Below are positions 4,731-25,499 of a DNA stretch of 64,000 nucleotides, piece after piece. Every line of letters starts with the position of its first letter. Positions within the stretch are counted from its first letter, which is position 1. The notes under the pieces were generated by a model, which searched no databases, was not told the DNA's origin, and saw only the letters and a list, made by a program, of their open reading frames with translations. This stretch comes from Halomonas sp. 7T (GTDB taxonomy: Bacteria > Pseudomonadota > Gammaproteobacteria > Pseudomonadales > Halomonadaceae), in the NCBI RefSeq assembly GCF_025643255.1, contig NZ_CP087112.1:3410001-3474000 (forward strand), in the 5' to 3' direction. A program made the translations under genes and the position numbers.

Positions 4731-4740
4731 CTGTACACAA
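4731..4740. promoter_or_regulatory. degenerate TTGTATACAA-type operator before the permease
   Basis: CTGTACACAA matches the cluster palindrome TTGTATACAA at 8 of 10 positions and lies 65 bases upstream of the permease start. A further partial site (TATGTGTATTT) lies near 4776-4786. Confidence 0.45.
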
Positions 4741-4978
4741 AAAATTATTCATCGATAAACACTTTTTGCAGAATATATGTGTATTTTTTGCTGGCCAAAT
4801 AATGTCGACACTAATTTGTAGGGGGCCTTCATTTTAGTGTTGGGTCGGCCTACACGGCTCAGAACAACGCGTTTTACGCAGATTGCCACTGACTGATTTA
4901 GCCGTTGCGAAATGGTTACGCGCCGCCGGATGAGGTGGAGAGGCGCGATAAAGTCCCGATTTAGTGGGGAAAAATAAA

Positions 4979-4988
4979 ATGTATACAA
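4979..4988. promoter_or_regulatory. TTGTATACAA-type operator in the permease/uraH divergent region
   Basis: ATGTATACAA matches the palindrome found before several purine genes at 9 of 10 positions. The 4667-5155 intergenic region is AT-rich, contains no gene I can support, and ends in the string CTACGCTTTAGCCACTCTGC, a degenerate short repeat just before uraH. Confidence 0.6.
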
Positions 4989-5155
4989 AAAATCTTTGAA
5001 ATGTTGCGAGTAATTATATAAAAATGTTGTCAGTATGTTCTGGGATACTAAGCTTCTTTTATCCCCACTGCGCTTTAGCTACTACGCTTTAGCCACTCTG
5101 CTTTAGACACCCTGCCGCCCACAGCGGCTTCGTTAGACAGCCTCAGGAGAAACTG

Positions 5156-5509
5156 ATGGGACGCCTTACGACACACGTACTAGATACCGCTCAGGGACAG
5201 CCTGGAGAAGGTATCAAAATCGAGGTTTACCGTTTAGGAGGAGGGCTTCGCCAGCTTCTTAAGACCGTTGAGACGAATGATGATGGCCGTTGTGATTCGC
5301 CAATACTAGAAGGTAGCGAGTTAGAAATCGGTGAGTATGAGCTGGTGTTTTATGCTGGCGACTATTTAAAGCGCCAAGGTATCGAGCTGAAAGCCCCTAG
5401 CTTTCTGGATGTTATCCCGCTGCGCTTTGGGGTGAATGATGCATCGCAGCACTATCATGTACCGCTGCTGCTTTCGCCCTTTGCTTACTCGACTTATCGC
5501 GGTAGCTAA
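5156..5509 (+). CDS. uraH: 5-hydroxyisourate hydrolase, cytosolic copy
   Basis: A 117-residue enzyme that hydrolyses 5-hydroxyisourate to OHCU. It begins MGRLTTHVLDTAQGQPG with the family's N-terminal His, has the SQHYHVPLLLSP segment, and ends in the canonical YRGS tetrapeptide. It has no signal peptide, so it should act in the cytosol with the product of PuuD. The ATG is preceded by CAGGAG at good spacing. puuD starts 78 bases after its stop on the same strand, so the two probably form one transcript. It differs clearly from the copy at 2-373 in sequence and in predicted location. Confidence 0.95.
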   Translation: MGRLTTHVLDTAQGQPGEGIKIEVYRLGGGLRQLLKTVETNDDGRCDSPILEGSELEIGEYELVFYAGDYLKRQGIELKAPSFLDVIPLRFGVNDASQHYHVPLLLSPFAYSTYRGS

Positions 5510-5587
5510 ACGCAGTTCACCCCGTTAATCCCCTAACAATGCTTATAAAGCCGCCCTAAAACAATCATACGAGGCGAGGAAACCCCC

Positions 5588-6793
5588 ATGCAGGCCTACC
5601 TAGTTGAATTTGGAAACTTTATGCTGCGCTGGCTACACGTCATCGCGGCGATCGCCTGGATAGGCGAGTCTATCTACTTTGTAATGCTGGATAACGGTCT
5701 TAGGAAGCCCAAGGCCGCCGAGGATCGCGAGAAAGGCGTGTTTGGTGAGATGTGGGCCGTACATGGTGGTGGTTTCTACCATAACCAAAAGTACGCCACG
5801 GCGCCGGCCAAGCTGCCGGATGACTTGCACTGGTCGTTCTGGAAAGCGTACACCACCTGGCTCTCCGGTTTTGCTCTTTTCATTATTCTGTACATGGTCA
5901 ATCCCAGTTTCTACTTGGTAAACCCCAATAGTAACTGGGAGTGGGCAGCGAACTTAGCTGGCTGGGAAGCAAACCTACTGGCACTGGCATTTTTGCTAGG
6001 GGGCTGGGTGGTTTATAACGAGATGTGTAAGCGCATCAGCCCAAATATGGAGCGTGATGGGCTATTGAGTGTCGGTGTGGCGATTATGATGGTCGTGGTC
6101 GCCTACTTGAGCACCCAGATGTTCTCAGGGCGCGCGGCTTTCCTGCTGACCGGTGCGGTCATGGCCACGGCAATGTCGGCCAACGTATTCTTCTGGATTA
6201 TTCCTGGCCAGCGCCGCATGGTAAAAGCCATGAAAGCGGGCGAAGCGCCGAACCCGTTAGATGGTAAGCGTGGTAAGCAGCGCTCTGTCCATAACACCTA
6301 CTTCACCCTGCCTGTCGTATTGCTGATGATCAGCAATCACTACTCCTTTGCTTACACTCATGAGTATGCTTGGGTGCTGATGACGCTGTTCATCTTTGCC
6401 GGTGCGTTGATTCGTCAGTACTTTGTTCTGATGCACCAGGGCAAAATACAGCCCGCTTATCCGGCGGTGGGTGTCGCGCTGATCCTGGTGGCGTTCTGGG
6501 TAGCGATGCCCTCTCAAAGTGCTTCTTCTAATGCGCAGGTAGCCGATGGCTCGCCAGATATTACCGAAGTAACGGCACTGATTAATCAGCACTGTGTGGC
6601 TTGTCATGCGCAGTCACCGACTCAGCCTGGTTTCTCAGCGCCGCCTGCTGGGGTGGTGCTAGATAGCGTAGAGCAAATCCTGCTCCAAAAAGAGAAGACG
6701 CAGCAAGTGGTGCAGAGTGGCTATATGCCGCTGGGTAACATGACCAACATGACGGACGAAGAGCGGGCGGTGATTCAAGCCTGGTCGGAGTAG
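5588..6793 (+). CDS. puuD: membrane urate oxidase with C-terminal cytochrome c domain
   Basis: A 401-residue PuuD-type urate hydroxylase. Residues 1 to about 310 form the multi-helix membrane domain (DUF989/urate oxidase N-terminal), opening LRWLHVIAAIAWIGESIYF and containing WAVHGGGFYHNQKY. The C-terminal part (about 325-401) is a small cytochrome c with the haem motif CVACH and a downstream Met (GYMPLGNMTNMT) as likely sixth ligand. The family oxidises urate to 5-hydroxyisourate and passes electrons to the respiratory chain instead of making H2O2. It follows uraH, which removes its product. GGCGAGGAAACCCCC precedes the ATG. A strong terminator follows. Confidence 0.95.
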   Translation: MQAYLVEFGNFMLRWLHVIAAIAWIGESIYFVMLDNGLRKPKAAEDREKGVFGEMWAVHGGGFYHNQKYATAPAKLPDDLHWSFWKAYTTWLSGFALFIILYMVNPSFYLVNPNSNWEWAANLAGWEANLLALAFLLGGWVVYNEMCKRISPNMERDGLLSVGVAIMMVVVAYLSTQMFSGRAAFLLTGAVMATAMSANVFFWIIPGQRRMVKAMKAGEAPNPLDGKRGKQRSVHNTYFTLPVVLLMISNHYSFAYTHEYAWVLMTLFIFAGALIRQYFVLMHQGKIQPAYPAVGVALILVAFWVAMPSQSASSNAQVADGSPDITEVTALINQHCVACHAQSPTQPGFSAPPAGVVLDSVEQILLQKEKTQQVVQSGYMPLGNMTNMTDEERAVIQAWSE

Positions 6794-6922: not shown

Positions 6923-6932
6923 ACGTATACAA
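6923..6932. promoter_or_regulatory. TTGTATACAA-type operator before the GntR gene
   Basis: ACGTATACAA, 8 of 10 matches to the palindrome, 36 bases before the chosen GntR start. A half-site (GCATACAAGG) follows at about 6948-6957. This suggests autoregulation. Confidence 0.55.
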
Positions 6933-6967: not shown

Positions 6968-7711
6968 GTGGAACAAGAAGTGAGTTTCAGTGGCATAAAG
7001 AAGCCGAATTCTAAACGATTGGGCAAAAACGGAGATGGTGCTGAGCGCCATGAGGTTATCTACCAGGCGATCAGTGATGCGATTATAAAGCAGCAGCTCC
7101 ACCCGGGCGCCAGGCTGCGCGAAGATGCTTTAACGGAAGTATTTAATGTCAGCCGAACGGGGATACGCAAAATTTTGCAGCGTTTGGCGATGGAGCAGCT
7201 GGTGACGATTACCCCGCGGCGCGGAGCGAGCGTGACGCGGCCCACGGCCGCAGAAGCGCGCGATGTGTTTGCAGCACGCAAAATGGTGGAGTGCGGTTTG
7301 ATGTCTGAGACAGCGCTGCATATCACGCCGCAAGATGTGCTTGAGCTGCGCGACATGGCCAAGCGAGAACATAAGGCACTGAGAGCGGGTGAGCAGAGTA
7401 CCGCGATCAAACTATCAGCCGCCTTTCATGAGCGCCTGGCGCAGCTGTCGGGTAATGCCACTTTGGCCGCCTTCGTTAGCCAGCTCTGTTCACGCTCCTC
7501 TTTAATTCTTGCGGTTTACGGAAGTGCGGGGCACCTGGGTTGTGAATCTCATGATCATGATGACCTCATCGACTATTTAGCCGCGGGCGAGGGTGAAAAA
7601 GCCAAAGCGTTTATGCTGCATCATTTAAATGAAATCGAGTCATCGCTCTCTTTTCTAGAGGAAGAGGCGTTTGCCCCCGACCTACACCAAATATTTGGCA
7701 TAACGTCTTAA
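6968..7711 (+). CDS. GntR-family (FCD) regulator, likely purine-catabolism regulator
   Basis: A transcription factor of about 247 residues with an N-terminal winged helix of the GntR family (YQAISDAIIKQQLHPGARLREDALTEVFNVSRTGIRKILQRLA) and an FCD-type all-helical effector domain. Family metal/ligand positions appear as FHERL and H residues near 155-210. I chose the GTG at 6968 because AAGG lies upstream; a GTG at 6935 would add 11 residues but has no ribosome-binding site and overlaps the promoter region. FCD regulators usually bind short palindromes such as TTGTATACAA, which occurs before this gene and many neighbours, so I infer it controls the urate regulon. A paralogue lies at 18105-18833. 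Confidence 0.9.
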   Translation: MEQEVSFSGIKKPNSKRLGKNGDGAERHEVIYQAISDAIIKQQLHPGARLREDALTEVFNVSRTGIRKILQRLAMEQLVTITPRRGASVTRPTAAEARDVFAARKMVECGLMSETALHITPQDVLELRDMAKREHKALRAGEQSTAIKLSAAFHERLAQLSGNATLAAFVSQLCSRSSLILAVYGSAGHLGCESHDHDDLIDYLAAGEGEKAKAFMLHHLNEIESSLSFLEEEAFAPDLHQIFGITS

Positions 7712-7802
7712 GAAAATGAGCGCAGCGGCAGTGAATAATACCGGCGGTAAAGGAGGTTCTGCTAAGCACTTGCGCTAAATATGAGTACAGTTTATCTTGT
7801 TG

Positions 7803-7812
7803 TTGTATACAA
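7803..7812. promoter_or_regulatory. perfect TTGTATACAA operator before puuE
   Basis: A perfect 10-bp palindrome 60 bases upstream of the puuE start. Confidence 0.7.
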
Positions 7813-7872: not shown

Positions 7873-8823
7873 ATGTATTCGCCTGATTACCCTCGTGATC
7901 TGGTCGGCTACGGCCGCAATCCTCCTCATGCTAACTGGCCCGGCAAGGCGAAAATTGCCGTTCAATTTGTGCTGAATTATGAAGAGGGGGGCGAGAACTC
8001 AGTACTGCACGGTGATGCGGGTTCTGAGCAGTTCCTTTCCGAAATACTAGGCGCTCCTGCCTTCCCAGATCGTCACCTGAGCATGGAGTCGATCTATGAG
8101 TACGGTTCGCGCAGCGGCGTGTGGCGTATTCTGCGTGAGTTTGAGCGACGCGGCCTGCCCCTGACGATTTTTGGTGTGGCCATGGCGCTGGAGCGTCACC
8201 CTGAGGTTGCCCATGCGTTCAAAGAGCTGGGCCACGAGATTGCTTGCCATGGCTACCGCTGGATTAACTATCAAGAAGTGCCAGAAGCGGTAGAGCGCGA
8301 GCACATGCAGCGTGCCATTGAAGTGTTCCAGAACCTTTACGGTGAAAAACCGCTGGGCTGGTATACCGGCCGTGATAGCCCCAATACGCGTCGCTTAGTA
8401 CTCGATCAAGGCGGTTTCCTGTATGACAGCGACTATTACGGTGATGATCTGCCGTTTTGGACGCGGGAGCAGGATAGCCGAGGCGAGACCCATACGCATC
8501 TGGTGGTGCCGTACACGCTGGACTCCAACGATATGCGCTTCGCCTCTCCACAAGGTTTTAATACCGCAGACCACTTCTTTACGTATCTACGTGACGCCTT
8601 TGATGTCTTATATGCCGAAGGGGATGAGGCGCCAAAAATGCTCTCTATTGGCCTGCACTGCCGTTTGATTGGCCGCCCCGGGCGTTTTCGCGCGTTGCAG
8701 CGTTTTCTTGACCACATTGAAGCGCACGATCGTGTCTGGGTGACCCGGCGCGTGGATATTGCGCGCCATTGGGCCGAGCACCATCCTGCCCGTTTTGAAG
8801 CCCGTTCTGAAGAGAGCCAGTGA
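7873..8823 (+). CDS. puuE: allantoinase PuuE, polysaccharide-deacetylase fold
   Basis: A 316-residue enzyme of the metal-independent allantoinase family, which hydrolyses allantoin to allantoate. It opens YSPDYPRDLVGYGRNPPHANWPG, diagnostic for PuuE, and shows the NodB-like fold segments VQFVLNYEEGGE, GHEIACHGYRW, GWYTGRDSPNTRRL and LHCRLIGRPGR. It is unrelated to the amidohydrolase AllB. The ATG at 7873 follows GGGACTTACATC. The stop is three bases before the iclR start, so the two genes are tightly coupled. It acts after UraD (24922-25455, minus strand) and before the missing allantoate amidohydrolase. Confidence 0.95.
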   Translation: MYSPDYPRDLVGYGRNPPHANWPGKAKIAVQFVLNYEEGGENSVLHGDAGSEQFLSEILGAPAFPDRHLSMESIYEYGSRSGVWRILREFERRGLPLTIFGVAMALERHPEVAHAFKELGHEIACHGYRWINYQEVPEAVEREHMQRAIEVFQNLYGEKPLGWYTGRDSPNTRRLVLDQGGFLYDSDYYGDDLPFWTREQDSRGETHTHLVVPYTLDSNDMRFASPQGFNTADHFFTYLRDAFDVLYAEGDEAPKMLSIGLHCRLIGRPGRFRALQRFLDHIEAHDRVWVTRRVDIARHWAEHHPARFEARSEESQ

Positions 8824-8826: not shown

Positions 8827-9603
8827 ATGAAGGGCAAGGATGAGCAGCAGCGGCTGATTCCGGCGCTTGAGCGGGGGCTGATGATTTTGATGGAGTTAAA
8901 CCGTCATCATCGTGAGATGAGTTTTGGCGAAATCGTCAAGCGCGTCGGTTTTCCTCAGTCAACAACCTACCGAACGGTGCAAACGCTAGAGCACATGGGG
9001 TTTTTACGCCATCACCCGGTCACTGGGCTGTATTCACTGGGCGTCAATGTGCTGCGTTTAGGCTTTGAGTACGTGGCCTCGCTGGATGTTGTGCAAGTGG
9101 GGCAACCGGTCATAGAAGCGCTGTGTGAAACCACGGGCTGTTCCAGTCATATTGCCATTCGAGACGGCCGTGACGCTGTTTATGTGGCGCGGGTAGGGGC
9201 AACCAACGCAACCGTACGCCGGGTTAGCGTCGGCACGCGGCTACCGCTGCACCGCACGGGTTTAGGGCGGATGCTGCTGGCCGAGCTGTCCTATGAGGAG
9301 TTTGAGGCGCTGTATCCTTCCGGCGAGCTGTTAGATAACAAGCCTGGCACGCCAGCCAATCGCGATGCTTTGTGGGAGTTGGTTCAGGAGGATCGCCGTC
9401 GAGGCTATGTTATCGCCGACTCGTATTTTCATTTTGGTATCTCTTCGATCGTCTATCCACTCTATAACCAAGAGGGAGCGATGGAAGGGGTTGTTAGCAT
9501 TATGGTGCCGGTGCACGAAATTCCTCAAGACACCCACCGCTGGCTCCAGGAACGGGTAGCGGACGCCGCGGCGAATATTTCAAGCATGCTGGGCCACGGC
9601 TAA
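8827..9603 (+). CDS. IclR-family regulator, AllR-like
   Basis: A 258-residue IclR protein with an N-terminal winged helix (ALERGLMILMELN, FPQSTTYRTVQTLEHMGFL) and the C-terminal effector domain (GCSSHIAIRDGRDAVYVARVG, LPLHRTGLGRMLLA, GYVIADSYFHFGISSIVYPLYN). AllR of E. coli is an IclR protein that senses glyoxylate and allantoin and represses allantoin genes, so this is a plausible analogue. It lies between allantoinase and ureidoglycine aminohydrolase, which supports control of the allantoin-to-glyoxylate half of the pathway. I cannot see a clear operator for it. Confidence 0.9.
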   Translation: MKGKDEQQRLIPALERGLMILMELNRHHREMSFGEIVKRVGFPQSTTYRTVQTLEHMGFLRHHPVTGLYSLGVNVLRLGFEYVASLDVVQVGQPVIEALCETTGCSSHIAIRDGRDAVYVARVGATNATVRRVSVGTRLPLHRTGLGRMLLAELSYEEFEALYPSGELLDNKPGTPANRDALWELVQEDRRRGYVIADSYFHFGISSIVYPLYNQEGAMEGVVSIMVPVHEIPQDTHRWLQERVADAAANISSMLGHG

Positions 9604-9651: not shown

Positions 9652-10488
9652 ATGACCAAGCGCAACTACTACGCTCCGCAAGGCGGGCATCCGGCACAAA
9701 CGCAGCTGCTGTCGGACCGCGCCGTCTTTACCGAAGCCTACGCAGTGATTCCTAAAGGGGTGATGCGTGACATCGTCACCAGTAATCTGCCGTTTTGGGA
9801 AAACACGCGGCTGTGGGTGTTGTCACGGCCACTGTCGGGGTTTGCCGAAACGTTTTCCCAATACATTATGGAAGTTTCCCCCGGCGGTGGCAGTGAGAAG
9901 CCAGAGCCCGACCCCGCAGCGGAAGGCGTGCTGTTCATCGTGGAAGGCGAGCTAACGCTTACCCTGAAAGGCGAGAAGCATGTGATGCAGCCCGGCGGTT
10001 ATGCCTTTTTACCCCCGGGTACCCGCTGGGAAGCGCATAACACGTCTGACGCGCCGGTGCGCTTTCACTGGGTGCGCAAAGCCTATGAGCAGGTAGACGG
10101 CATCGACGTGCCAGAGCCCTTCGTGACCAATGAGAACGATATCGAGCCAACGGCGATGCCGGGCACCGATGAGAAGTGGGTCACTACGCGCTTTGTCGAC
10201 CCTGCCGACATTCGCCATGACATGCATGTCAATATTGTGACTTTCCAGCCGGGCGCAGTCATCCCGTTTGATGAAACGCACGTCATGGAGCATGGTCTTT
10301 ATGTCTTAGAAGGTAAGGCGGTTTATCACCTAAACCAGAACTGGGTAGAGGTTGAGGCGGGCGACTTTATGTGGCTGCGTGCCTTCTGCCCACAGGCGTG
10401 CTACGCCGGTGGCCCAGGGCCGTTCCGCTATTTACTTTATAAAGACGTTAATCGCCACATGAAGCTAGGCGGTGTTGGCCCGCGCTAA
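9652..10488 (+). CDS. allE: (S)-ureidoglycine aminohydrolase
   Basis: A 278-residue bicupin enzyme that converts (S)-ureidoglycine to (S)-ureidoglycolate with release of ammonia. The first cupin covers about 50-135 and the second about 190-270. The metal site is in the second cupin, with ligands E-x-H-x3-H in FDETHVMEHGLYVLEG and the Gln of CPQACYAGG. The ATG at 9652 follows AAAGGAAAGAG. A GTG at 9613 would add 13 residues with a poor ribosome-binding site. AllE prevents spontaneous breakdown of ureidoglycine, and its presence implies an AllC-type allantoate amidohydrolase elsewhere in the genome. Confidence 0.93.
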   Translation: MTKRNYYAPQGGHPAQTQLLSDRAVFTEAYAVIPKGVMRDIVTSNLPFWENTRLWVLSRPLSGFAETFSQYIMEVSPGGGSEKPEPDPAAEGVLFIVEGELTLTLKGEKHVMQPGGYAFLPPGTRWEAHNTSDAPVRFHWVRKAYEQVDGIDVPEPFVTNENDIEPTAMPGTDEKWVTTRFVDPADIRHDMHVNIVTFQPGAVIPFDETHVMEHGLYVLEGKAVYHLNQNWVEVEAGDFMWLRAFCPQACYAGGPGPFRYLLYKDVNRHMKLGGVGPR

Positions 10489-10533: not shown

Positions 10534-11022
10534 ATGCTGGAATTGAGAGCACAGCCTTTAACACCCGAAGCCTTTGCGCCCTTTGGAGACGTAATTGATA
10601 CCCGCACGGCAGACTACTTTCCTATCAATGCCGGGCGCACGCGGCGTTATCACGACCTAGCGCGGGTAGAAACCCTAGGGGAAGATGCCCGGCCGCTGAT
10701 CAATATTTTTGTCAGCCAGCCGGTTGAGGTGCCTCTAGCGCTAGACTTTCTTGAATGCCATCCGCTCGGCAGCCAAGCCTTTATGCCGCTGTATGAAGAG
10801 CGCTTTATCGTGGTAGTGGCGCCCAAGGGCGAAACGATTGATAGCCAAGATGTGCGCGCGTTTGTGACCGATGGTCATCAAGGCGTTAACTACCACGCCG
10901 GTACTTGGCATGCGATTCAATCGGTACTCGAGCGAGAAGGGCGCTTTCTGGTGGTAGACCGCGGCGGGGAAGGGAGCAACTGCCTGGAATATCCGCTGGC
11001 CATCAAGGTAGAGATCGAATAA
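10534..11022 (+). CDS. allA: ureidoglycolate lyase
   Basis: A 162-residue enzyme, the usual family length, that splits ureidoglycolate to glyoxylate and urea. Signature segments are FAPFGDVID, INIFVSQP, LECHPLGSQAF, VNYHAGTWHA and RGGEGSNCLE, with the cupin-like active-site His and Glu. The start has TTTAGGAGCCAGCC upstream. The gap from allE is 45 bases, so they are one operon. Glyoxylate made here feeds gcl; urea may leave or enter through the UreI-like channel at 763-1281. Confidence 0.95.
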   Translation: MLELRAQPLTPEAFAPFGDVIDTRTADYFPINAGRTRRYHDLARVETLGEDARPLINIFVSQPVEVPLALDFLECHPLGSQAFMPLYEERFIVVVAPKGETIDSQDVRAFVTDGHQGVNYHAGTWHAIQSVLEREGRFLVVDRGGEGSNCLEYPLAIKVEIE

Positions 11023-11094: not shown

Positions 11095-11286
11095 ACTGGT
11101 AGCGACGCTGCCGGTCCTTTCGGCGTGCCTGACGGTCTCGGCTGGCCGCCTTCCTCTTCTTTATTTCTATTTCCCTGCTAACGAATCCCTCTAAATTTTT
11201 GATTTAGTGCCGGTTTAATCCGGAGTCGATAATTATATGGAAATATTTTCCATGAATTATTGACAGTGATTCGTTGGGCGCATACT

Positions 11287-11333
11287 TTGGATACAAGAAT
11301 AAATACTAAAATGAATACAAAAAATGTTTACAA
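11287..11333. promoter_or_regulatory. three clustered TTGTATACAA-type sites at the gcl promoter
   Basis: TTGGATACAA (11287-11296), ATGAATACAA (11311-11320) and ATGTTTACAA (11324-11333) match at 9, 8 and 8 of 10 positions, within 80 bases upstream of the gcl start. Their clustering suggests cooperative binding by the GntR regulator. Confidence 0.6.
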
Positions 11334-11365: not shown

Positions 11366-13153
<1,788 letters not shown>

Positions 13154-13159
13154 AGGATG

Positions 13160-13188
13160 CCCTGGCTGCGACCTGTTCAACGCCAGGG
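13160..13188 (+). other. intercistronic hairpin between gcl and hyi
   Basis: CCCTGGC pairs with GCCAGGG around a 15-base loop. It lacks a T tract, so partial termination or transcript stabilisation is more likely than full termination. Confidence 0.45.
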
Positions 13189-13248
13189 TATTAAGGGTTT
13201 GTCGCCCCTCCCGTTCGCTAGTCCTACATAACAAGTAAGGAGACCTGC

Positions 13249-14025
13249 ATGTCCAAGTTTGCTGCAAATCTCAGCATGTTGTTCACCGAAGTGGACTTCC
13301 TCGATCGTTTTAAAGCCGCTGCCGACGCTGGCTTCAAGGGTGTCGAATACCTTTTTCCCTATGATTACCCGGCAGCGGACATCAAACAGCGCCTGGACGC
13401 CAATGGCCTGAGCCAAGTGCTGTTCAACCTACCTGCCGGTGACTGGGGCGCCGGTGAGCGCGGTATTGCCTGCCATCCCGACCGTGTTGACGAGTTCCGT
13501 GCAGGCGTCGATAAAGCCATTGAGTACGCGAAGGTGCTGGGCAACACCCAAGTGAACTGCTTAGTCGGTATTAAGCCGGACGGTGTTAGCGACGCAAAAG
13601 CACATGAGACGGTGATTGAAAACCTGCGCTTTGCCGCTGAAAAGCTTAAAGCGGCGGGCATCCTGCTGATCGCTGAGCCGATTAACACCCGTGATATTCC
13701 GGGGTTTTTCCTCAACCGCACGGAGCAGGCGCTGGCCCTGTTCGATGAAGTGGGCAGCGACAACCTGAAGCTGCAATACGACATCTACCACATGCAAATC
13801 ATGGAAGGGGATCTAGCGCCCACCATCGAAAAGCATTTTGCGCGTATTGCCCACGTGCAGTTAGCGGATAACCCAGGGCGTCATGAGCCGGGTACCGGCG
13901 AAATCAATTATCCCTTCCTTTTTGCGCACCTTGAGCGCCTGGGTTACGACGGCTGGATTGGCTGCGAATACAAGCCCAAAGCGGGAACGACGCAAGGGCT
14001 GGGCTGGTTGGATAGCGCACGTTAA
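13249..14025 (+). CDS. hyi: hydroxypyruvate isomerase
   Basis: A 258-residue TIM-barrel enzyme that interconverts hydroxypyruvate and tartronate semialdehyde. It opens MSKFAANLSMLFTEVDFLDRFKAAADAGFKGVEYLFPYDY, a near-signature for Hyi, and shows the metal ligand segments LLIAEPINTRDIPGFFL, LQYDIYHMQIMEGD, HVQLADNPGRHEPGTGEINY and IGCEYKP. AAGGAGACCTGC precedes the ATG. The length is normal. Confidence 0.96.
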   Translation: MSKFAANLSMLFTEVDFLDRFKAAADAGFKGVEYLFPYDYPAADIKQRLDANGLSQVLFNLPAGDWGAGERGIACHPDRVDEFRAGVDKAIEYAKVLGNTQVNCLVGIKPDGVSDAKAHETVIENLRFAAEKLKAAGILLIAEPINTRDIPGFFLNRTEQALALFDEVGSDNLKLQYDIYHMQIMEGDLAPTIEKHFARIAHVQLADNPGRHEPGTGEINYPFLFAHLERLGYDGWIGCEYKPKAGTTQGLGWLDSAR

Positions 14026-14131
14026 GGCCAACTGCATCTATAGATTCCGAGCGGGTTAACGGCAAGCGGGTGAACACTGCCCCGTGTTTGCTGAACCCAC
14101 GCTTGGTGAATTAATTGGAAGGAGCAACATT

Positions 14132-15016
14132 ATGAGCAAGATCGGTTTTATTGGTTTAGGCATTATGGGTCGCCCGATGGCTGGCCACCTGCTCGACGCG
14201 GGCCACTCCTTGGTGACCGTGAAGCGCGGTACGCTGGATGCAGGCCTTGCTGAAAAAGGCATGCAAGAAGTAGCCAGCCCCAAAGAGGTTGCCCAAGCCG
14301 TTGACGTGATTATCACTATGGTGCCAGACACCTCTGACGTTGAAACCGTGCTGTTCGGTGAAGACGGCGTCATTGAAGGTCTCAAGCCGGGCACTTTAGT
14401 GATCGACATGAGCTCCATCGCGCCCATGCAAACTCAGGCATTTGCCAAGCGTATTACCGACGCGGGCGGTGAGTATGTAGATGCCCCAGTATCCGGTGGT
14501 GAAGGTGGTGCCATTAATGCCGCGCTCACTATCATGGTCGGCGCGACTGACGAAGGCTTTAAGCGAGCGACACCGCTGCTTGAAGTGGTGGGTAAAACGA
14601 TCACCCATATTGGCGGTCACGGTGCAGGCCAGACCTGTAAAGTCGCCAACCAGATCGTGGTGGCTCTGACCATCGAAGCCGTTGCCGAAGGGTTGCTATT
14701 CGCTTCTAAAGCCGGTGCTGATGTGGAGAAAGTGCGTGAATCGCTGCTGGGCGGCCTTGCTCAGTCGAAGATTCTTGATGTCCATGGCGAGCGCATGATC
14801 AAGCGTACCTTTGATCCGGGCTTCCGCATCCGTCTGCATCAAAAAGACCTTAACCTCGCACTGGAAGGCGCTCGTAGCTTGAACCTGTCACTGCCAGGTA
14901 CCGCTAATGCGCAGCAGCTATTCCAAGCGTGCGCTGCTAACGGTGGCGCGGACTGGGATCACGCGGGCATTCTACGTGCGCTGGAGAAACTGGCAGATCA
15001 CGAGGTGGGCGCGTAA
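14132..15016 (+). CDS. glxR: 2-hydroxy-3-oxopropionate (tartronate semialdehyde) reductase
   Basis: A 294-residue NAD(P)-dependent reductase of the beta-hydroxyacid dehydrogenase family that makes D-glycerate. The Rossmann motif is IGFIGLGIMGRPMAGHLLDAGH, substrate loop DAPVSGGEGGA at about 117-127, and catalytic Lys within GAGQTCKVANQI at about 165-175. The ATG at 14132 has GGAAGGAG upstream; an upstream in-frame start at 14084 lacks one. It lies in the glyoxylate operon between hyi and the glycerate kinase. Confidence 0.95.
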   Translation: MSKIGFIGLGIMGRPMAGHLLDAGHSLVTVKRGTLDAGLAEKGMQEVASPKEVAQAVDVIITMVPDTSDVETVLFGEDGVIEGLKPGTLVIDMSSIAPMQTQAFAKRITDAGGEYVDAPVSGGEGGAINAALTIMVGATDEGFKRATPLLEVVGKTITHIGGHGAGQTCKVANQIVVALTIEAVAEGLLFASKAGADVEKVRESLLGGLAQSKILDVHGERMIKRTFDPGFRIRLHQKDLNLALEGARSLNLSLPGTANAQQLFQACAANGGADWDHAGILRALEKLADHEVGA

Positions 15017-15194
15017 CCCTTAATCGGCGTTAGTGAGTAATGGTGGGTCGTGGTTCCTGGCCCACCGCTGTAGTTGCATGTGAGACATTGGTTTTTACCC
15101 GGTGGCAGTTCCCCCGTTTTGCCATTTTGCTGCCACCGGCTTTTTCCCCCTTATTTTTCTTCTTTGCCCTGGCTCTTGCCTGAGGAGTCTGCCG

Positions 15195-16538
15195 ATGAAT
15201 GCCCCTTTTCGCTTAGCCCCTTTTACCAGTGAAGAAGACTCACGCCAGTGGCTAATGCGCTTAGCCGAAAAGGCGATCGCTGCGGTTCACCCCGACAGCT
15301 TGCTACCCGACCAACTACCTGAAAAGCCGACGGGTCGCACCGTGGTTGTAGGGGCTGGTAAAGCCGCCGCAGCGATGGCGCGCGCGTTGGAGCTGGCATG
15401 GGAAGCGCAGTCCTCTGGCGAGTCAACTGACTTAGAAGGGTTGGTGGTTACCCGCTATCAGCACGGTGCCGCCTGCCAACACATTGAAGTACTCGAAGCG
15501 TCTCACCCAATGCCTGATGCGCTGGGTGAGCAGGCCGCAAAACGTATGTTGGAAGCGGTTAAAGACCTGGGTGAAGATGACCTGGTCATTGCGTTGATTT
15601 CCGGTGGTGGCTCTGCGCTTATGTCGCTTCCCGCCGATGGCATTAGCCTGAAAGATAAGCAAGCTCTGAACAAAACGCTGCTGCGTTGCGGGGCGACGAT
15701 TCGTGAAATCAATACGGTGCGTCGTCATCTCTCCGCGATTAAGGGCGGTCGTTTAGCGGCCTGCGCGCACCCCGCTCGCGTGGTGACGTACCTTATTTCG
15801 GATGTGCCGGGTGATGAGGCGTCGTTAATCGCCTCCGGCCCTACGCTGCCGGATAACACCACGCCGCGTGATGCGCTAACAATTCTTGAGCGCCACCAGA
15901 TCGAGGTGCCCGACAACGTGCGTCAGCACCTGCTGGCCGACCACAGCGCACCACAGCTCAATAGCCCTGAGTTTGCCCGCGACCAGCACATCATCCTCGC
16001 TCGCGCCTGCGATGCGTTAGATGCTGCAAAGCGCAGTGCTGAAGCCAGCGTTGGTGAAACCAGTATTGGCGAAAGTGGTATCGATATCAGAGTGCTAGGC
16101 GACGACTTAGAGGGCGAGGCGCGCGATTTAGGCACTGCCCAGGCGCGCATGGCGTTCAAACTGCAGGACGAAATCACCCGCCCCCTGTTGGTGCTCTCCG
16201 GTGGCGAGACCAGCGTTACCGTGAAAGGTGATGGGCGGGGTGGGCGTAATGTTGAGTATCTACTGGGGCTTTTCGATGGCCTCAAAGGCGCAGAGGGCAT
16301 TTACGCCCTGGCCATCGACACCGACGGCATTGACGGGTCGGAGGATAACGCGGGTGCGTTAATTGGCCCTGAGTGCTGGAAGCGCGCCGAGTCTTTGCAG
16401 CTGTCAGCGCGAGACTACCTGTCTCGCAATGATGCCTATAGCTTTTTTGATGCGCTTGACGACCTAATCGTGACCGGGCCAACCCGTACGAACGTCAATG
16501 ATTTTCGCGCCATCCTTATTCTTCCGAGGCAGCCATGA
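15195..16538 (+). CDS. ttuD: glycerate 2-kinase (MOFRL family, often called TtuD)
   Basis: A 447-residue protein with the N-terminal DUF4147/GckA domain (VVVGAGKAAAAMARALE, ASHPMPD, LISGGGSALMSLPADGISL, NTVRRHLSAIKGGRLA, SDVPGDEASLIASGPT) and C-terminal MOFRL domain (LSGGETSVTVKGDGRGGRNVEYLLG, AIDTDGIDGSEDNAGA, TGPTRTNVND). The family was long annotated as hydroxypyruvate reductase, but characterised members phosphorylate glycerate to 2-phosphoglycerate. The adjacent pyruvate kinase and enolase support the kinase role. GAGGAGTCTGCCG precedes the ATG. It overlaps pyk by four bases (ATGA). Confidence 0.9.
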   Translation: MNAPFRLAPFTSEEDSRQWLMRLAEKAIAAVHPDSLLPDQLPEKPTGRTVVVGAGKAAAAMARALELAWEAQSSGESTDLEGLVVTRYQHGAACQHIEVLEASHPMPDALGEQAAKRMLEAVKDLGEDDLVIALISGGGSALMSLPADGISLKDKQALNKTLLRCGATIREINTVRRHLSAIKGGRLAACAHPARVVTYLISDVPGDEASLIASGPTLPDNTTPRDALTILERHQIEVPDNVRQHLLADHSAPQLNSPEFARDQHIILARACDALDAAKRSAEASVGETSIGESGIDIRVLGDDLEGEARDLGTAQARMAFKLQDEITRPLLVLSGGETSVTVKGDGRGGRNVEYLLGLFDGLKGAEGIYALAIDTDGIDGSEDNAGALIGPECWKRAESLQLSARDYLSRNDAYSFFDALDDLIVTGPTRTNVNDFRAILILPRQP

Positions 16539-18010
16539 AACCTACCGCGTATACCCCTATTCGCCGCACAAAAATTGTCGCCACGTTAGGCCCCGCCAGC
16601 GACCGTCAAGGCGTGCTGGAAGCAATGCTGCGAGCTGGCGTGGATGTTGTTCGGCTCAATTTTTCCCATGGGTCGGCGGATGATCATCGTCGTCGTCTAA
16701 GCGAAGTGCGTGAGATTGCGCAGCGTTTAGGTAGAAGCGTCGCTGCGCTGGCCGATTTGCAAGGCCCAAAAATTCGCATCGCGCGCTTCAAAGAGGGCGC
16801 CGTGGTGCTGGAAGAAGGGCAGTCCTTCGTACTTGATATGCTGATGGAGAGCGACGCCGGAGATGTAAACCGCGTGGGCTGCGACTATAAAACGCTGGCG
16901 GATGATGTCAGCGTCGGTGATCGCCTGTTATTAGACGATGGCCGTCTGGTGCTCGAAGTTAGTGCCATTCAGGGTAAAGAAGTCCACACCCGTGTGATTG
17001 TTGGCGGCAGGCTCTCCAATAATAAAGGTATAAACAAACAGGGCGGTGGATTATCGGCAGCTGCGCTCACCGACAAGGATAAACAAGACCTTAAAACCGC
17101 TGTAGAGATTGGGGTGGACTACTTGGCGGTCTCTTTCCCACGCAGTGCTGCAGATATGCATGAAGCGCGTGAACTGCTCGGTGAGGCGGGTAAGGAAATT
17201 GGCCTTATCGCTAAGGTTGAGCGTGCCGAAGCGGTGGCGGACGAGGCCACCCTAGACGGCATTATCAGCGCGTCCGAAGCCGTAATGGTGGCGCGGGGCG
17301 ATTTGGGCGTAGAGATCGGCGATGCACAGCTGATAGGCGTGCAAAAACGCTTAATTAAGCGCGCACGCAGCCTCAACCGCGCTGTGATCACCGCTACCCA
17401 AATGATGGAGACCATGATCAGTTCGCCGCTGCCCACTCGGGCTGAGGTGTTTGATGTGGCCAATGCGGTATTGGATGGCACCGATGCGGTAATGCTCTCC
17501 GCTGAAACGGCTGCGGGTGATTTTCCTGTTGAAACCATCGAAGCCATGAACCGGGTATGCCTGGGAGCCGAGCGCGAGCGTAGTGCTCAAGAGTCTGGCC
17601 ATCGCATTCACCAGGGTTTCTCAAAAATCGACGAAACCGTGGCGCTCTCTGCCATGTATGCCGCCAATCACTTGCAAGGCGTGGCTGCCATTGCCTGTAT
17701 GACGTCGAGTGGTTTCACGGCGCTGATTGCTTCGCGTATCCACTCGGGATTACCCATCGTTGGCCTGGCGCATAGTGAGATTGCCCAGCGTCGCATGGCG
17801 CTATATCGCGGCGTCGTCTCACTCGCGTTTGATACCAGCGAGATGAAAGCAGAAGAACTTAATGATCGGGCGCTGGAAGTGCTGGTGGCACACGGAATCG
17901 CGGCCCCGGATGACCACGTCATTCTTACCCGTGGTGATCACATGAATGCTCATGGTGGCACGAATACTCTGAAAATTTTGGATGTGAAAGCTAAGCATCA
18001 GCGCGGCTAA
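16535..18010 (+). CDS. pyk: pyruvate kinase
   Basis: A 491-residue pyruvate kinase: TKIVATLGPAS and LNFSHG near the N-terminus, ADLQGPKIR, the catalytic Lys segment LIAKVERAEAV, MVARGDLGVEIG, and the signature ITATQMMETMISSPLPTRAEVFDVANAVLDGTDAVMLSAETAAG. It converts PEP to pyruvate. It overlaps the glycerate kinase gene by ATGA, so translation is coupled, which argues for a dedicated catabolic isozyme (pykF type in Pseudomonas gcl operons). The allosteric C-terminal domain is present. Confidence 0.96.
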   Translation: MKPTAYTPIRRTKIVATLGPASDRQGVLEAMLRAGVDVVRLNFSHGSADDHRRRLSEVREIAQRLGRSVAALADLQGPKIRIARFKEGAVVLEEGQSFVLDMLMESDAGDVNRVGCDYKTLADDVSVGDRLLLDDGRLVLEVSAIQGKEVHTRVIVGGRLSNNKGINKQGGGLSAAALTDKDKQDLKTAVEIGVDYLAVSFPRSAADMHEARELLGEAGKEIGLIAKVERAEAVADEATLDGIISASEAVMVARGDLGVEIGDAQLIGVQKRLIKRARSLNRAVITATQMMETMISSPLPTRAEVFDVANAVLDGTDAVMLSAETAAGDFPVETIEAMNRVCLGAERERSAQESGHRIHQGFSKIDETVALSAMYAANHLQGVAAIACMTSSGFTALIASRIHSGLPIVGLAHSEIAQRRMALYRGVVSLAFDTSEMKAEELNDRALEVLVAHGIAAPDDHVILTRGDHMNAHGGTNTLKILDVKAKHQRG

Positions 18011-18104
18011 GCGACGCGTTTTTAGGAAGCTAAAACAGTGTGCTGTTATAGTGGCCGAGGTAACAATGCGAATGTTGAGTGAGGACCACCTGGAGAAAGG
18101 CAAC

Positions 18105-18833
18105 ATGAGCCTCGGCTGGCACAAACAACCTTTAAACACTTCCAAAAGAGGTGGGTATAACGATCAAACGATCGTTGAGCACATCCGTAACGCGGTCCTA
18201 ATGCAGCGACTACCGCCGAATACTAAATTGCCAGAAATTACCCTGGGTGAAGTGTTTGGCGTTAGCCGTTCAGTCGTGCGTAAGGCGCTCACGCGGCTTG
18301 CGGCAGAGCACGTTATCAATCAGCGCCCTAATCAAGTCGCGCGCGTTCGCGCCCCTACCGTTGAAGAGACCCGCGAGACGTTTTCAGCGCGTCGGTTAAT
18401 TGAGGGTGAGATAGTGGCACTGCTGGCGGGGAAGCTTGGTACCGACACCTTGATGGCACTGAATGCGCAAGTGGACGATGAAAAGCAGGCCTATGCCAGA
18501 AAAGACGAGCCAGCGCGCATCGAACACTCGCTAACCATTCACCATCTGCTGGCTGAGCATGCCTCCAACCGCATTCTTGGCACCATGCTCACCGACCTGA
18601 TTTTACGCACCTCAATCGTGATCGCTTTATATAAGCGGCCCACGTTGGCTTCGTGCTACTTGGAAGGCGACCATGCAACGCTAATGGTGCATTTGGCTAA
18701 CGGTGATGCCGAAGGGGCCAGGCAGTGCGTGCATGAACACTTGCACAGTTTAGAAGCCCTGCTGGATCTTTCTCCACGAGGGGCGGAGAGCGATTTAAAG
18801 GCTATTTTGGGTGGCAAATTAGCGCGAGCTTAA
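18105..18833 (+). CDS. GntR-family (FCD) regulator, second copy
   Basis: About 242 residues: winged helix (NDQTIVEHIRNAVLMQRLPPNTKLPEITLGEVFGVSRSVVRKALTRLA) and an FCD-type domain with likely metal/ligand positions in EHSLTIHHLLAEH and the C-terminal HEHLHSLEALL. It aligns in layout and length with the regulator at 6968-7711, so the two are paralogues. The ATG at 18105 follows GGAGAAAGGCAAC; ATG at 18066 (after GAGGT) is an alternative. It lies between pyk and eno on the same strand and may sense a late intermediate such as glyoxylate or glycerate; that is speculation. Confidence 0.88.
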   Translation: MSLGWHKQPLNTSKRGGYNDQTIVEHIRNAVLMQRLPPNTKLPEITLGEVFGVSRSVVRKALTRLAAEHVINQRPNQVARVRAPTVEETRETFSARRLIEGEIVALLAGKLGTDTLMALNAQVDDEKQAYARKDEPARIEHSLTIHHLLAEHASNRILGTMLTDLILRTSIVIALYKRPTLASCYLEGDHATLMVHLANGDAEGARQCVHEHLHSLEALLDLSPRGAESDLKAILGGKLARA

Positions 18834-20326: not shown

Positions 20327-20353
20327 GTGGGTGTGTTATGAACTCAACACCGG

Positions 20354-22060
20354 TTATAACAACAGCCGCCGAATGTCAGTCAATACATCCGCCAGGAAAG
20401 CGGTAAAGCGCGCCGCATCCGCACCGTTAATCGCCCGGTGATCGTAGGAGAGCGAGAGCGGCATCATCAAACGCGGCTGGAAGGCGCTACCATCCCACAC
20501 CGGTTTCATTTGCGCTTTCGATACGCCCAAAATCGCCACTTCCGGCGCATTAACAATCGGCGTAAATGCCGTGCCACCAATCGAGCCCAGGCTCGAAATC
20601 GTGAAGCAGCCGCCGGTCATCTCGTCACGCTTGAGCTTCTTGGTTTGCGCTTTCTTGCCCAGCTCCGCCATCTCCTTGGCAATCTCAATCAAGGATTTTT
20701 GGTCGGCGTTGCGCACTACCGGCACCATCAGGCCCTCCGGCGTATCCACCGCGATACCGATATGCACGTAGTTTTTCCAGACCAGCGTATCGCCATCGCC
20801 TTTCAGGCTGACGTTAAACTGGGGGAACTTACGCAGCGCAAAGGCACACGCTTTGACCATAAACGGCAGCGGCGTGAGTTTTGCGCCCTGCGCTTCCGCT
20901 TCGGCCTTCATGGCTTTGCGGAAGGCTTCAAGCTCGGTGATATCCGCTTCGTCGAACTGGGTCACGTGGGGGACGTTGAGCCAGCTGCGGTGCAGGTTGG
21001 TCGCGCCCATCTTGAGCAGGCGGCCCATGGGCTTCTCTTCCACGTCGCCAAACTGGCTGAAGTCGACCTCGGGAATCGCAGGAATACCCGCCCCGCCCGT
21101 TGCTGCCGGCGCGGCTGCTGACGCGCTGCCTTGGTTAGCAATCGCTTGCTTGACGTACGCCTGCACGTCCTCTTTCAGCACGCGGTCCTTCGGGCCACTG
21201 GGCGTCACTAAGGCAAGGTCAACGCTTAACTCGCGGGCCAGCATGCGCACCGCCGGGCCTGCATGAACCAGCTTGCCATCACGTGGCTTATGCGCTGCCA
21301 TTTGGGCTTCAGGGCTGGGCGTTCCAGTGGGCGTTGCTTCTTTCTTTTCCTCTGCAGCAGGTGCGGCTTCAGGCTCACTGGCCGCAGCCGGCGCGTCTGC
21401 TTGGGCAGGCACTTCGTCTTCGTCACCACCGTCGCCCGCGATCTCCATCTGGCCGATGACGTCGCCTTCCGACACCGTGTCGCCCTCTTTGACGGTCAGC
21501 GCCACGATCTTGCCGCTATGGGGGCTGGGCACGTCCATGGAGGCTTTGTCCGACTCTAGCGTGATCAGGGTGTCTTCGGCTTCGACCTCATCGCCTTCGC
21601 CTACGGCCACCTCGATGATCTCGACGCTGTCCGAGCCGCCAAGATCGGGCACTGTGATATCTACCGTCTGCTTACCACCGGCGGACTTTTTAGCCGCAGG
21701 CTTCTGCTCTTGCGGTTGCTCTTTAGACTGTTCTTGAGAAGGCTCTTTGGGTGTTGCTTGCTTGGCTGGAGCCTCTTCAGGCTGGCTGTCAGACGAGCTC
21801 TCTTGCTGCTCGTCGCCGCCACCCTCGACTTCCAGCTCAACGATGTCGTCGCCTTCGGAGACGCTGTCGCCTTCTTTGACCAGCACTTTGAGCACCTTGC
21901 CGCCTTTCGGGGCGGGGACGTCCATGCTGGCTTTGTCGGATTCCAGGGTGATTAGGGTGTCTTCCGCTTCAATGACGTCGCCTTCTGACACCGCAATCTC
22001 GATGATTTCGACATCGGTATCGCCACCGATGTCGGGAACTTTGATAATTTCGCTACTCAA
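20354..22060 (-). CDS. aceF: pyruvate dehydrogenase E2, dihydrolipoamide acetyltransferase
   Basis: About 568 residues. It has two N-terminal lipoyl domains, each with the lipoylated Lys in TLITLESDKASMDVP, then flexible Ala/Pro/Glu linkers, a peripheral subunit-binding domain (AGPAVRMLARELSVDLALVTPSGPKDRVLKEDV) and the catalytic acetyltransferase core ending in the LSYDHRAINGADAARF active-site motif with its His. I chose TTG at 22060 as start because AAGGAG lies 8 bases upstream and LSSEIIKVPDIGG then opens the first lipoyl domain; the GTG at 22099 lacks a ribosome-binding site. It follows aceE on the same strand. No lpd follows, so E3 must come from another locus. Confidence 0.95.
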   Translation of the reverse strand: MSSEIIKVPDIGGDTDVEIIEIAVSEGDVIEAEDTLITLESDKASMDVPAPKGGKVLKVLVKEGDSVSEGDDIVELEVEGGGDEQQESSSDSQPEEAPAKQATPKEPSQEQSKEQPQEQKPAAKKSAGGKQTVDITVPDLGGSDSVEIIEVAVGEGDEVEAEDTLITLESDKASMDVPSPHSGKIVALTVKEGDTVSEGDVIGQMEIAGDGGDEDEVPAQADAPAAASEPEAAPAAEEKKEATPTGTPSPEAQMAAHKPRDGKLVHAGPAVRMLARELSVDLALVTPSGPKDRVLKEDVQAYVKQAIANQGSASAAAPAATGGAGIPAIPEVDFSQFGDVEEKPMGRLLKMGATNLHRSWLNVPHVTQFDEADITELEAFRKAMKAEAEAQGAKLTPLPFMVKACAFALRKFPQFNVSLKGDGDTLVWKNYVHIGIAVDTPEGLMVPVVRNADQKSLIEIAKEMAELGKKAQTKKLKRDEMTGGCFTISSLGSIGGTAFTPIVNAPEVAILGVSKAQMKPVWDGSAFQPRLMMPLSLSYDHRAINGADAARFTAFLADVLTDIRRLLL

Positions 22061-22088
22061 GGTCGCGCTCCTTCCAAATCGGATCGAG

Positions 22089-22110
22089 CCGGCGGGCACC
22101 TGCCCGCCGG
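22089..22110 (-). other. intercistronic hairpin between aceE and aceF
   Basis: Perfect GC-rich 10-bp stem CCGGCGGGCA / TGCCCGCCGG with a minimal loop, lying between the aceE stop and the aceF ribosome-binding site. No T tract follows. It may set the E1:E2 ratio by stabilising or processing the transcript. Confidence 0.6.
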
Positions 22111-22117
22111 GCAGCGT

Positions 22118-24790: not shown

Positions 24791-24827
24791 AGAGGTCTCT
24801 CCGAATGACGATAAAAGGTAAGCCTCA

Positions 24828-24857
24828 CAGCCTGAAGGGTGAGCACCGTTCAGGCTG
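24828..24857 (-). terminator. hairpin between uraD and aceE
   Basis: Stem CAGCCTGAA / TTCAGGCTG with a 12-base loop, 38 bases upstream of aceE and 65 past uraD, all on the minus strand. It could end uraD transcription or be a leader structure of aceE. Confidence 0.5.
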
Positions 24858-24921
24858 CGGGAAAAGCAGCCATGCTAAGCGCGTGAGCAGACAATTGTTG
24901 CGGTAACGAATATCTAAACAA

Positions 24922-25455
24922 TTACGCGACTGTCTCAGCACGCATGTGCAGGCGAAAGCGAGCTATTTGGATGATTTGCTCAATAGCGGTCTGTCGTTCG
25001 GTTGCTGCATCGTTTTCAAGACGCGTTTCGAACGCAGCGAGAATGGCGTGGCGATCAAGTCCTTTAACGGCAATCACGAAGGGAAAGCCAAACTTATCTT
25101 GGTAAGCCTGATTCATCTGCTGGAAGCGTGCAAATTCCTCGGCAGAGCACTGATCTAGCCCGGCACCTGCCTGTTCACGGGTGGAGTCCTGCGTTAACTC
25201 GCCGGCCAAGGCGGCTTTTCCTGCAAGGTCAGGGTGAGCGCGAATAACCGCAATTTGTTCGTTGATATCTGCGCTCTGAAGCACTGCTCCCATGGTGTCA
25301 GCCAATACATCGGCATCATCATGCTGAGTGGTAAAGCCCTGTTTCCAAGCTGTTTCTGCTACCCATGGCGAGTGTTCAAAGATATCGCCGTAGTGGGTAA
25401 GAAATGCTTCTAAGCCAAGATTGCTCGGACGGGCGGCATTTAAAATGTGCGGCAT
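24922..25455 (-). CDS. uraD: OHCU decarboxylase
   Basis: A 177-residue enzyme that decarboxylates 2-oxo-4-hydroxy-4-carboxy-5-ureidoimidazoline to S-allantoin. Family segments are FLTHYGDIFEHSPWVAE, the catalytic-site HPDLAGKAALAGELTQDSTREQAGAGLD, and FVIAVKGLDRHAILAAFETRLEN. I chose the ATG at 25455 because TGGAGAATACA precedes it; upstream in-frame starts would add hydrophobic residues with no ribosome-binding site. A perfect TTGTATACAA palindrome lies 35 bases upstream, tying it to the other urate genes even though it sits 16 kb from puuE. Confidence 0.95.
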   Translation of the reverse strand: MPHILNAARPSNLGLEAFLTHYGDIFEHSPWVAETAWKQGFTTQHDDADVLADTMGAVLQSADINEQIAVIRAHPDLAGKAALAGELTQDSTREQAGAGLDQCSAEEFARFQQMNQAYQDKFGFPFVIAVKGLDRHAILAAFETRLENDAATERQTAIEQIIQIARFRLHMRAETVA

Positions 25456-25489
25456 TGTATTCTCCATTTGTATATTTTTGTCTGAGTTA

Positions 25490-25499
25490 TTGTATACAA
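25490..25499. promoter_or_regulatory. perfect TTGTATACAA operator between uraD and the outer-membrane channel
   Basis: Perfect 10-bp palindrome in the divergent region, able to control both genes. A weaker TTGTATATTT lies nearby at 25468-25477. Confidence 0.7.

Follow-up and report, generated by a model that had tools for sequence, protein, structure and literature searches.

A shared palindromic operator at the urate genes of Halomonas sp. 7T and its proposed reader, a UgmR-like GntR regulator

Within the 64,000-nucleotide stretch of Halomonas sp. 7T analysed here (bases 3,410,001-3,474,000 of a 3,634,557-base single-contig genome; referred to below as the window), Pfam and NCBIfam profile searches confirmed a cluster of purine genes running from an NCS2 permease through uraD. 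A palindrome, TTGTATACAA (TTGT-AT-ACAA, with the core TGTATACA), stands in front of several of these genes. We propose, with a probability of about 0.82, that TTGTATACAA is the operator of a urate-responsive repressor of the UgmR type and that GntR1, a regulator encoded within the cluster, is the protein that binds it. The genes of the cluster are as follows.

3209..4666, minus strand: NCS2 purine (xanthine/urate-type) permease (Pfam Xan_ur_permease; NCBIfam ncs2 over cut-off)
5156..5509, plus strand: uraH, 5-hydroxyisourate hydrolase (NCBIfam hdxy_isourate over cut-off)
5588..6793, plus strand: PuuD-type urate oxidase (Pfam Urate_ox_N, 405.7 bits)
6968..7711, plus strand: GntR1, FCD/FadR-type regulator, UgmR-like (Pfam GntR and FCD; neighbourhood; tree)
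7873..8823, plus strand: puuE, allantoinase (NCBIfam allantoinase PuuE over cut-off)
8827..9603, plus strand: IclR-family regulator (Pfam HTH_IclR and IclR_C)
9652..10488, plus strand: bifunctional allantoicase/(S)-ureidoglycine aminohydrolase, a cupin (NCBIfam AAH_UGLYAH2 over cut-off)
10534..11022, plus strand: allA, ureidoglycolate lyase (Pfam Ureidogly_lyase)
11366..18010, plus strand: gcl-hyi-glxR-glxK-pyk, the branch from glyoxylate to pyruvate (family searches)
18051..18833, plus strand: GntR2, FCD regulator, paralogue of GntR1 (Pfam)
24922..25455, minus strand: uraD, OHCU decarboxylase (the NCBIfam UHCUDC match begins at residue 50 in the mechanical open reading frame, ORF)
25626..26492, plus strand: Tsx-like outer-membrane channel (homologue match)

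The permease scored slightly below the cut-off of NCBIfam pbuX (411.0 against 414.15 bits), and the C-terminus of the PuuD-type urate oxidase gave a weak cytochrome c match under the cut-off. The start codon of GntR1 is backed by alignment, and uraD likely starts near 25455. In the glyoxylate branch, gcl and hyi passed their NCBIfam cut-offs, the glxR- and glxK-type genes were assigned from Pfam and pyk was also identified; by their families, eno, aceF and aceE were found beside these genes and GntR2. The Tsx-like protein itself had no direct Pfam or NCBIfam match; among three homologues scanned, one of 71% identity (L022) passed Pfam Channel_Tsx with 29.3 against 27.2 bits and two failed. The interval 16535-24790, with pyk, eno, aceF and aceE, links the glyoxylate genes to uraD, and a single stretch thus covers the route from urate to acetyl-CoA.

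The operator copies, given without strand, are located at the following positions, where conservation refers to the window and five close genomes (L016-L020), six genomes altogether.

4686..4695: operator copy TTGTATTCAA with one mismatch, some 20 bp upstream of the permease start
4731..4740: operator copy CTGTACACAA in the permease promoter, two mismatches, kept in 6/6
4979..4988: operator ATGTATACAA, between the divergent permease and uraH genes, kept in 6/6
6923..6932: operator ACGTATACAA in the GntR1 gene's own promoter, GTATACAA kept in 6/6
7803..7812: operator TTGTATACAA at puuE, exact, kept in 6/6
11287..11296: GntR operator TTGGATACAA in the gcl start region, one mismatch to TTGTATACAA
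11311..11333: two weak ATACAA/TTACAA repeats at 12-13 bp spacing, window lineage only
25490..25499: operator TTGTATACAA, between the divergent uraD and outer-membrane-channel genes, exact

While the site coordinates in a preliminary description of this DNA are correct, its list was incomplete, as the copy at 4686-4695 had been overlooked. Its grading stood for the exact sites at 7803 and 25490 and for the one-mismatch sites at 4979 and 11287, but near-perfect was too strong a word for 6923, 11311 and 11324, which have two mismatches to TTGTATACAA, as do 4731 and 11085. In the close genomes, the sites at 4979 (conserved form TGTATACAA), 6923 and 7803 were kept as the neighbouring bases drifted, and 4731 persisted though its flanks diverge, L019 and L020 being matched by eye. 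The suggested comparison of orthologous promoters thus gave footprints in 6/6 genomes at four window sites (4731, 4979, 6923 and 7803). The 4686 copy was kept in 4/6 and is absent from L019 and L020, which have a shorter intergene, and 25490 was kept in all three close genomes having uraD within reach. Of the two sites described earlier as weak, 4731 is conserved but 11085 (TTGTATACGG) is not; the latter was dropped together with 18925 (CTGTATTCAA), conservation being absent in the close genomes. By our own reading of the promoter boxes, the operator at puuE begins 4 bp 3' of a -10-like TATCTT, itself 17 bp after TTGCGC, and that at uraD begins 2 bp after TATATT.

A GTAC tetramer precedes TGTATACA by 18-20 bp, or roughly two turns of the helix, in 62/71 uraD promoters (set L016-L095) and in 9/49 puuE promoters. 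In the window it lies at 7783-7792 (GAGTACAGTT) and at 25520-25511 on the minus strand, and it may be an auxiliary half-site or a promoter element.

Whether the motif exceeds chance in this genome depends on how strictly it is matched. A two-mismatch scan of the window gave 19 sites against 17.4 expected, a count reached in 42 of 100 shuffles, and was set aside as uninformative, since there is no overall enrichment. One-mismatch sites numbered 35 genome-wide compared with 34 for the motif read backward, the genome-wide control, so most of them are background. The 3.63-Mb genome has just two exact copies of TTGTATACAA, one at puuE and one at uraD, both inside 4731-25499 (chance about 3e-5). The same stretch holds 4 of the 35 one-mismatch sites against 0.18 expected from the rest (Poisson P about 4e-5); widening it to include 4686 raises the count to 5 (P about 1e-6). 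It also holds 3 of the 11 genome copies of TGTATACA against 0.05 expected (P about 1.6e-5); these P values are generous because the stretch was chosen on account of the motif. As such, the genome scan proposed earlier upheld the clustering of exact copies at purine genes but not the bulk one-mismatch count. The idea that equal density elsewhere would speak against an operator, followed on whole-genome sites, likewise divides: the exact sites do not refute the operator, and the one-mismatch sites are at background. The signal resides in position and in the better matches.

Conservation was further assessed in halomonad loci titled Halomonas, Vreelandella, Billgrantia and kin. These are the best-scoring 80 out of 103 loci in which a GntR1 relative was confirmed, and they were annotated using the window proteins. 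Upstream stretches of at most 300 bases, ended at the neighbouring annotated gene, were taken from genes more than 55% identical to those of the window, and stretches of 25 bases or less were excluded. TGTATACA was present upstream of uraH in 75/76, uraD in 71/73, puuE in 50/55 and the permease in 12/18, and was sparser at gntR1 (12/70), gcl (1/10), ugAH, the ureidoglycine aminohydrolase gene (3/46), and the Tsx-like outer-membrane protein gene (3/11). None was found upstream of puuD (0/67), allA (0/38), hyi (0/8), pyk (0/11), iclR (0/2) or gntR2 (0/5). The shorter GTATAC core occurs upstream of gntR1 in 44/70, puuD in 1/67 and the Tsx-like channel in 8/11; the gntR1 figure counts in favour of GntR1 as the binder. 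Among all 256 eight-base palindromes, TGTATACA ranked first at uraH, uraD, puuE, the permease and gntR1, and its density upstream of uraH, uraD, puuE and the permease exceeded that in the remainder of the same loci by a factor of 94 (161 in 35 kb vs 75 in 1,535 kb). ACATATGT did not occur in these upstream sets. Considering the genome counts together with the footprints, a shared operator of the purine regulon, as claimed in the preliminary description, is strongly supported in Halomonadaceae and in other families of the order.

One distant site adds to this picture. A further TGTATACA copy, in a TTGTATACAG site at C1:2,442,843 (L111), 0.97 Mb from the cluster, is shared by a second uraD and a second pyruvate kinase gene divergent to it. 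Of the three genes in relatives that are most similar to this second uraD (94, 88 and 79-82% identity), two keep TGTATACA there; the figure is 12/13 for all rows, which include paralogous uraD genes and one locus represented by two overlapping rows. As an independent hit, this supports the motif beyond chance. The xdhABC-guaD operon, of which xdhA, xdhC and guaD pass NCBIfam cut-offs in this genome, has no TGTATACA, and its upstream gap also lacks the looser patterns scanned, on which grounds it was excluded from the regulon. Considering that its products act before urate, this absence fits a switch starting at urate.

Seven other genome copies of TGTATACA were taken as background: three are internal to ORFs (L113, L114 and L117), one lies at an ORF edge (L116) and three are intergenic, located 5' of a UbiB-like ORF (L112), in an ntrC/GGDEF gap (L115) and at window 39452, 5' of another GGDEF gene. 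The two copies linked to GGDEF (diguanylate cyclase-type) genes, at window 39452-39459 and at C1:2,741,864 (L115) just 3' of ntrC, are probably due to chance. Near-operators TTGTGTACAA and TTGCATACAA were seen at C1:1,613,255 and 1,613,363 (L106 3255 and 3363), before a membrane-type ORF of 497 amino acids, and the same position in relatives holds TGTATACA in 2/6 (L224 and L226). This ORF may be a further target; its identification by eye as a purine permease was abandoned, as it matched no NCBIfam or Pfam profile.

The gcl promoter contains, besides the operator, a second palindrome.

11260..11288, plus strand: gcl sigma70-type promoter TTGACA-N17-TACTTT, matched in 17/17 halomonads
11238..11252, no strand: second palindrome TGGAAATATTTTCCA, operator-like, its end 7 bp upstream of the gcl -35

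In all 17 halomonad gcl promoters we found TTGAC(A/G) and a TA-type -10, separated by 17 bp except for one promoter with 18. The operator lies across the -10 or behind it, which is the layout that a repressor blocking the start site would need. The best 10-mer at this place had at most one mismatch to TTGTATACAA in 9/17, two in 2 and three to five in 6. When ten gcl loci were aligned, the repeats at 11311 and 11324 were confined to the lineage of the window (L016-L018), and 11287 is the ancestral, orthologous gcl site. The earlier suggestion that a triple site gives stronger control of gcl is therefore weak: only 11287 is ancestral, and the best-conserved gcl element is the other palindrome. 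TGGAAATATTTTCCA starts 21-23 bp before TTGAC(A/G), with 0-2 mismatches, in 17/17 halomonad gcl promoters and is exact in this genome at gcl and one other place only. A TGGAAATATTTTCCA-type palindrome also lies 20-115 bp before ugAH in 5/16 loci (L190, L191, L193, L198 and L201); none precedes this gene in the window.

As for the protein that reads TTGTATACAA, GntR1 is the best-supported candidate, as the preliminary description had proposed, since the operator travels with its family, but its standing as sole reader is challenged by two genomes lacking it and by GntR2. The closest matches of the GntR1 protein are halomonads, a Halomonas metagenome-assembled genome (95%) and Vreelandella nigrificans (88%). 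Nine genomes carry GntR1 but lack a GntR2 orthologue, and in eight of them TGTATACA lies between uraD and uraH, so GntR2 is not required for the operator. In other families, 9/11 loci chosen for a GntR1 homologue (39-65% identity) have TGTATACA near purine genes. A separate reading of wider regions showed TGTATACA in 12/18 stretches; GntR1 is present in five of these, a 40-50% homologue in another five and neither in two. Exact TTGTATACAA lies near the gene in five loci, from three genera, whose homologues are 40-50% identical. Within 10-12 kb around puuE, no TGTATACA was found in the distant halomonads L174 and L176-L178, which have no GntR1 homologue in the stretch, nor in L175, whose homologue is 37% identical. 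TGTATACA was also missing within 300 bp of puuE in all 24 genomes where GntR1 is absent or represented by a 36-50% homologue only, a control given little weight because puuE appears to be operon-internal in many of them.

In Pseudomonas aeruginosa, according to PMC12694930, UgmR (PA1520) is reported to bind upstream of gcl and allantoin genes and to repress them, the repression being relieved by uric acid and not by allantoin, and the factor behind the allantoin response of gcl without UgmR is stated there as open. The locus studied here is similar in that a GntR regulator with an FCD domain stands beside urate/allantoin genes, gcl being among its proposed targets. In the Pseudomonas-type loci L183-L187, the homologue shares its stretch with uraH and puuE-uraD-allA-puuD, and TGTATACA is present; L184-L187 carry TTGTATACAA between uraH and puuE, the Pseudomonas stretches L245-L247 carry it at a permease, and TTGTACACAA or TTGTGTACAA precedes the GntR gene in Pseudomonas-type loci. 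The GntR homologue of L186 is 92% identical to a protein named Pseudomonas aeruginosa. In the gene order PA1513-PA1520, the Pseudomonas homologue appears to occupy the place of UgmR. The two systems differ in that identity is only 39-41%, that halomonads own a second paralogue and that uraD and the Tsx-like channel have their own operator here. No gcl gene lies in the Pseudomonas stretches analysed.

No UgmR site was found in the literature searched, though one may be in print (Xu et al. 2022), and none of the papers listed for the operator letters was on purine regulators. The operators of the FadR subfamily, as given in PMC4494728, follow TKGT/ACMA with two bases between GT and AC, the examples with this spacing being GntR, HpxS, HypR, MdcY, PrpR and UxuR. 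TTGT-AT-ACAA fits TKGT-N2-ACMA, and the FCD domain and the sites between divergent operons are further likenesses to this subfamily. HpxS regulates purine genes in another lineage.

Several observations weigh against the proposal of a UgmR-type operator read by GntR1. Rows across relatives are not independent, being mostly close kin, with uraD and uraH often sharing one intergene. Genome G019 has GntR1 and shows no TGTATACA in the surrounding 11 kb, and G011 and G048, without GntR1, retain TGTATACA between uraD and uraH, their best match to GntR1 being a GntR2 orthologue at 36%. The only TGTATACA of L180 lies away from purine genes, with TTGTGTACAA upstream of its puuE; L189 has TTGTGTACAA and no TGTATACA, and L169, with a 45% homologue, is without TGTATACA. 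At gcl, the operator is degraded in 6/17 halomonads, and L181, the sole non-halomonad gcl locus read, has neither the gcl operator nor TGGAAATATTTTCCA. The Pseudomonas proteins are 37-39% identical to GntR2 compared with 39-41% to GntR1, and the tree separates the GntR1, GntR2 and Pseudomonas clades with an order support of 80/54, very long outgroups and PA1520 not identified by name. In addition, TGTATACA lies 36-246 bp 5' of GntR2 orthologues in 10/16 other loci.

This last point leads to the strongest alternative, to which we give somewhat less than even odds: that GntR2 reads the operator jointly with GntR1, or alone in some genomes, as two FCD repressors with different ligands and overlapping control, for example urate for one and xanthine or a metabolite of the glyoxylate branch for the other. 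TGTATACA stands just 5' of GntR2 in four gcl-linked loci (L192, L195, L196 and L200), GntR2 is near xanthine dehydrogenase genes, judged by eye, in six loci with ORFs read (L206-L211), and in L208 two ORFs match xdhA and xdhB of NCBIfam. In their recognition helices, GntR1, GntR2 and the Pseudomonas proteins have the pattern (I/V)R(K/R)xLxRL in common, whereas three outgroups show RE there. G011 and G048, which possess GntR2 and lack GntR1, still retain the operator. However, the operator persists in the genomes lacking GntR2 noted above, neither the window nor any of five window-type relatives with gntR2 has TGTATACA in the short upstream gap, and the site at 18925 beside GntR2 is not conserved. 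Taken all together, GntR2 probably also reads TTGTATACAA in many relatives, which makes cross-talk likely, and in this genome we expect GntR1 to be the main reader with GntR2 as a reader too. In L206-L211 a TetR-type ORF, assigned by eye, lies between GntR2 and the xanthine dehydrogenase genes (the same set also includes L212-L221); GntR2 of the window instead ends the gcl-pyk genes, beside eno.

A very unlikely alternative is that the IclR-family protein of 8827-9603 (AllR/BhcR-like) is the main purine regulator and TTGTATACAA its site. IclR-family proteins, AllR in E. coli and BhcR in Paracoccus, control allantoin and glyoxylate genes, and the IclR gene here directly follows puuE. The protein matches the AllR and BhcR models well under their cut-offs (101.1 of 406 and 135.8 of 350 bits). 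Its orthologue (70-100% identity) was found in only 4/40 halomonad genomes, including this one, whereas the operator is widespread. Moreover, the palindrome resembling IclR-family operators is TGGAAATATTTTCCA and not TTGTATACAA. In favour of this alternative, a reference title in PMC12694930 describes AllR as sensing allantoin and glyoxylate.

For TGGAAATATTTTCCA, the IclR protein is a possible binder, but its spread (4/40 genomes) does not by itself fit that of gcl (17 of the same 40). GntR2 follows gcl better, with orthologues in 16/16 other gcl-bearing genomes; it is also present in 6/6 of genus g11, of which G034 and G070 have no gcl match and four were outside the gcl comparison, and its own promoter bears TGTATACA rather than TGGAAATATTTTCCA. 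On these grounds neither was adopted as the general reader of TGGAAATATTTTCCA.

Least probable of all, the view that the sites are chance AT-rich matches or shared -10 elements (TATACA) and no operator has on its side the unenriched two-mismatch scan and a one-mismatch count equal to the backward control, but is opposed by the positions of the exact matches, the 94-fold upstream rate, the first rank among 256 palindromes, the absence of ACATATGT from the upstream sets and the 6/6 footprints at four sites.

We therefore return to TTGTATACAA as the operator of a UgmR-type repressor with GntR1 as its proposed binder. Here the sites, their placement, their conservation and their company with the GntR family were directly observed, while we infer binding, repression and the promoter boxes, and take urate as the ligand from UgmR. 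At puuE, uraD and gcl, a GntR1 dimer would cover TTGT-AT-ACAA on the -10 element or immediately behind it; it would also occupy the permease/uraH, uraD/Tsx and gntR promoters, and would thereby block RNA polymerase. Accumulated urate, or a closely related product, would bind the FCD domain and release the dimer, so that uptake through the Tsx-like channel and the permease, the urate-to-allantoin steps, allantoinase and the glyoxylate branch might be turned on together. Through 6923, the GntR1 gene would limit its own level.

More tentatively still than the shared reading by GntR2, purine breakdown in halomonads could run on two operators in series, with TTGTATACAA read by two FCD GntR paralogues (one on the urate side and one on the xanthine/gcl side) and TGGAAATATTTTCCA read by another protein, both at gcl and, in part of the relatives, before ugAH. 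In that case, TGGAAATATTTTCCA might represent the missing allantoin- or glyoxylate-responsive control, independent of UgmR, that is reported for gcl in Pseudomonas, and it bears on the question, put in print in PMC12694930, of how allantoin induces gcl apart from UgmR.

The gene switch is well supported but largely expected. While the UgmR kind of urate repressor is known, the analysis adds its operator, a corrected site list, the second uraD/pyk target and the gcl palindrome. It thereby gives a concrete operator for this kind of repressor, one that Pseudomonas-type loci have in common with halomonads, together with targets open to testing in harmless halophiles. The compact puuE promoter, if urate-responsive as proposed, could act as a sensor part in production halophiles. 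Outside the cluster, a gene for an OvoA-type ovothiol synthase was observed 5' of the window (L105 9421-11565, at about 3.40 Mb of C1).

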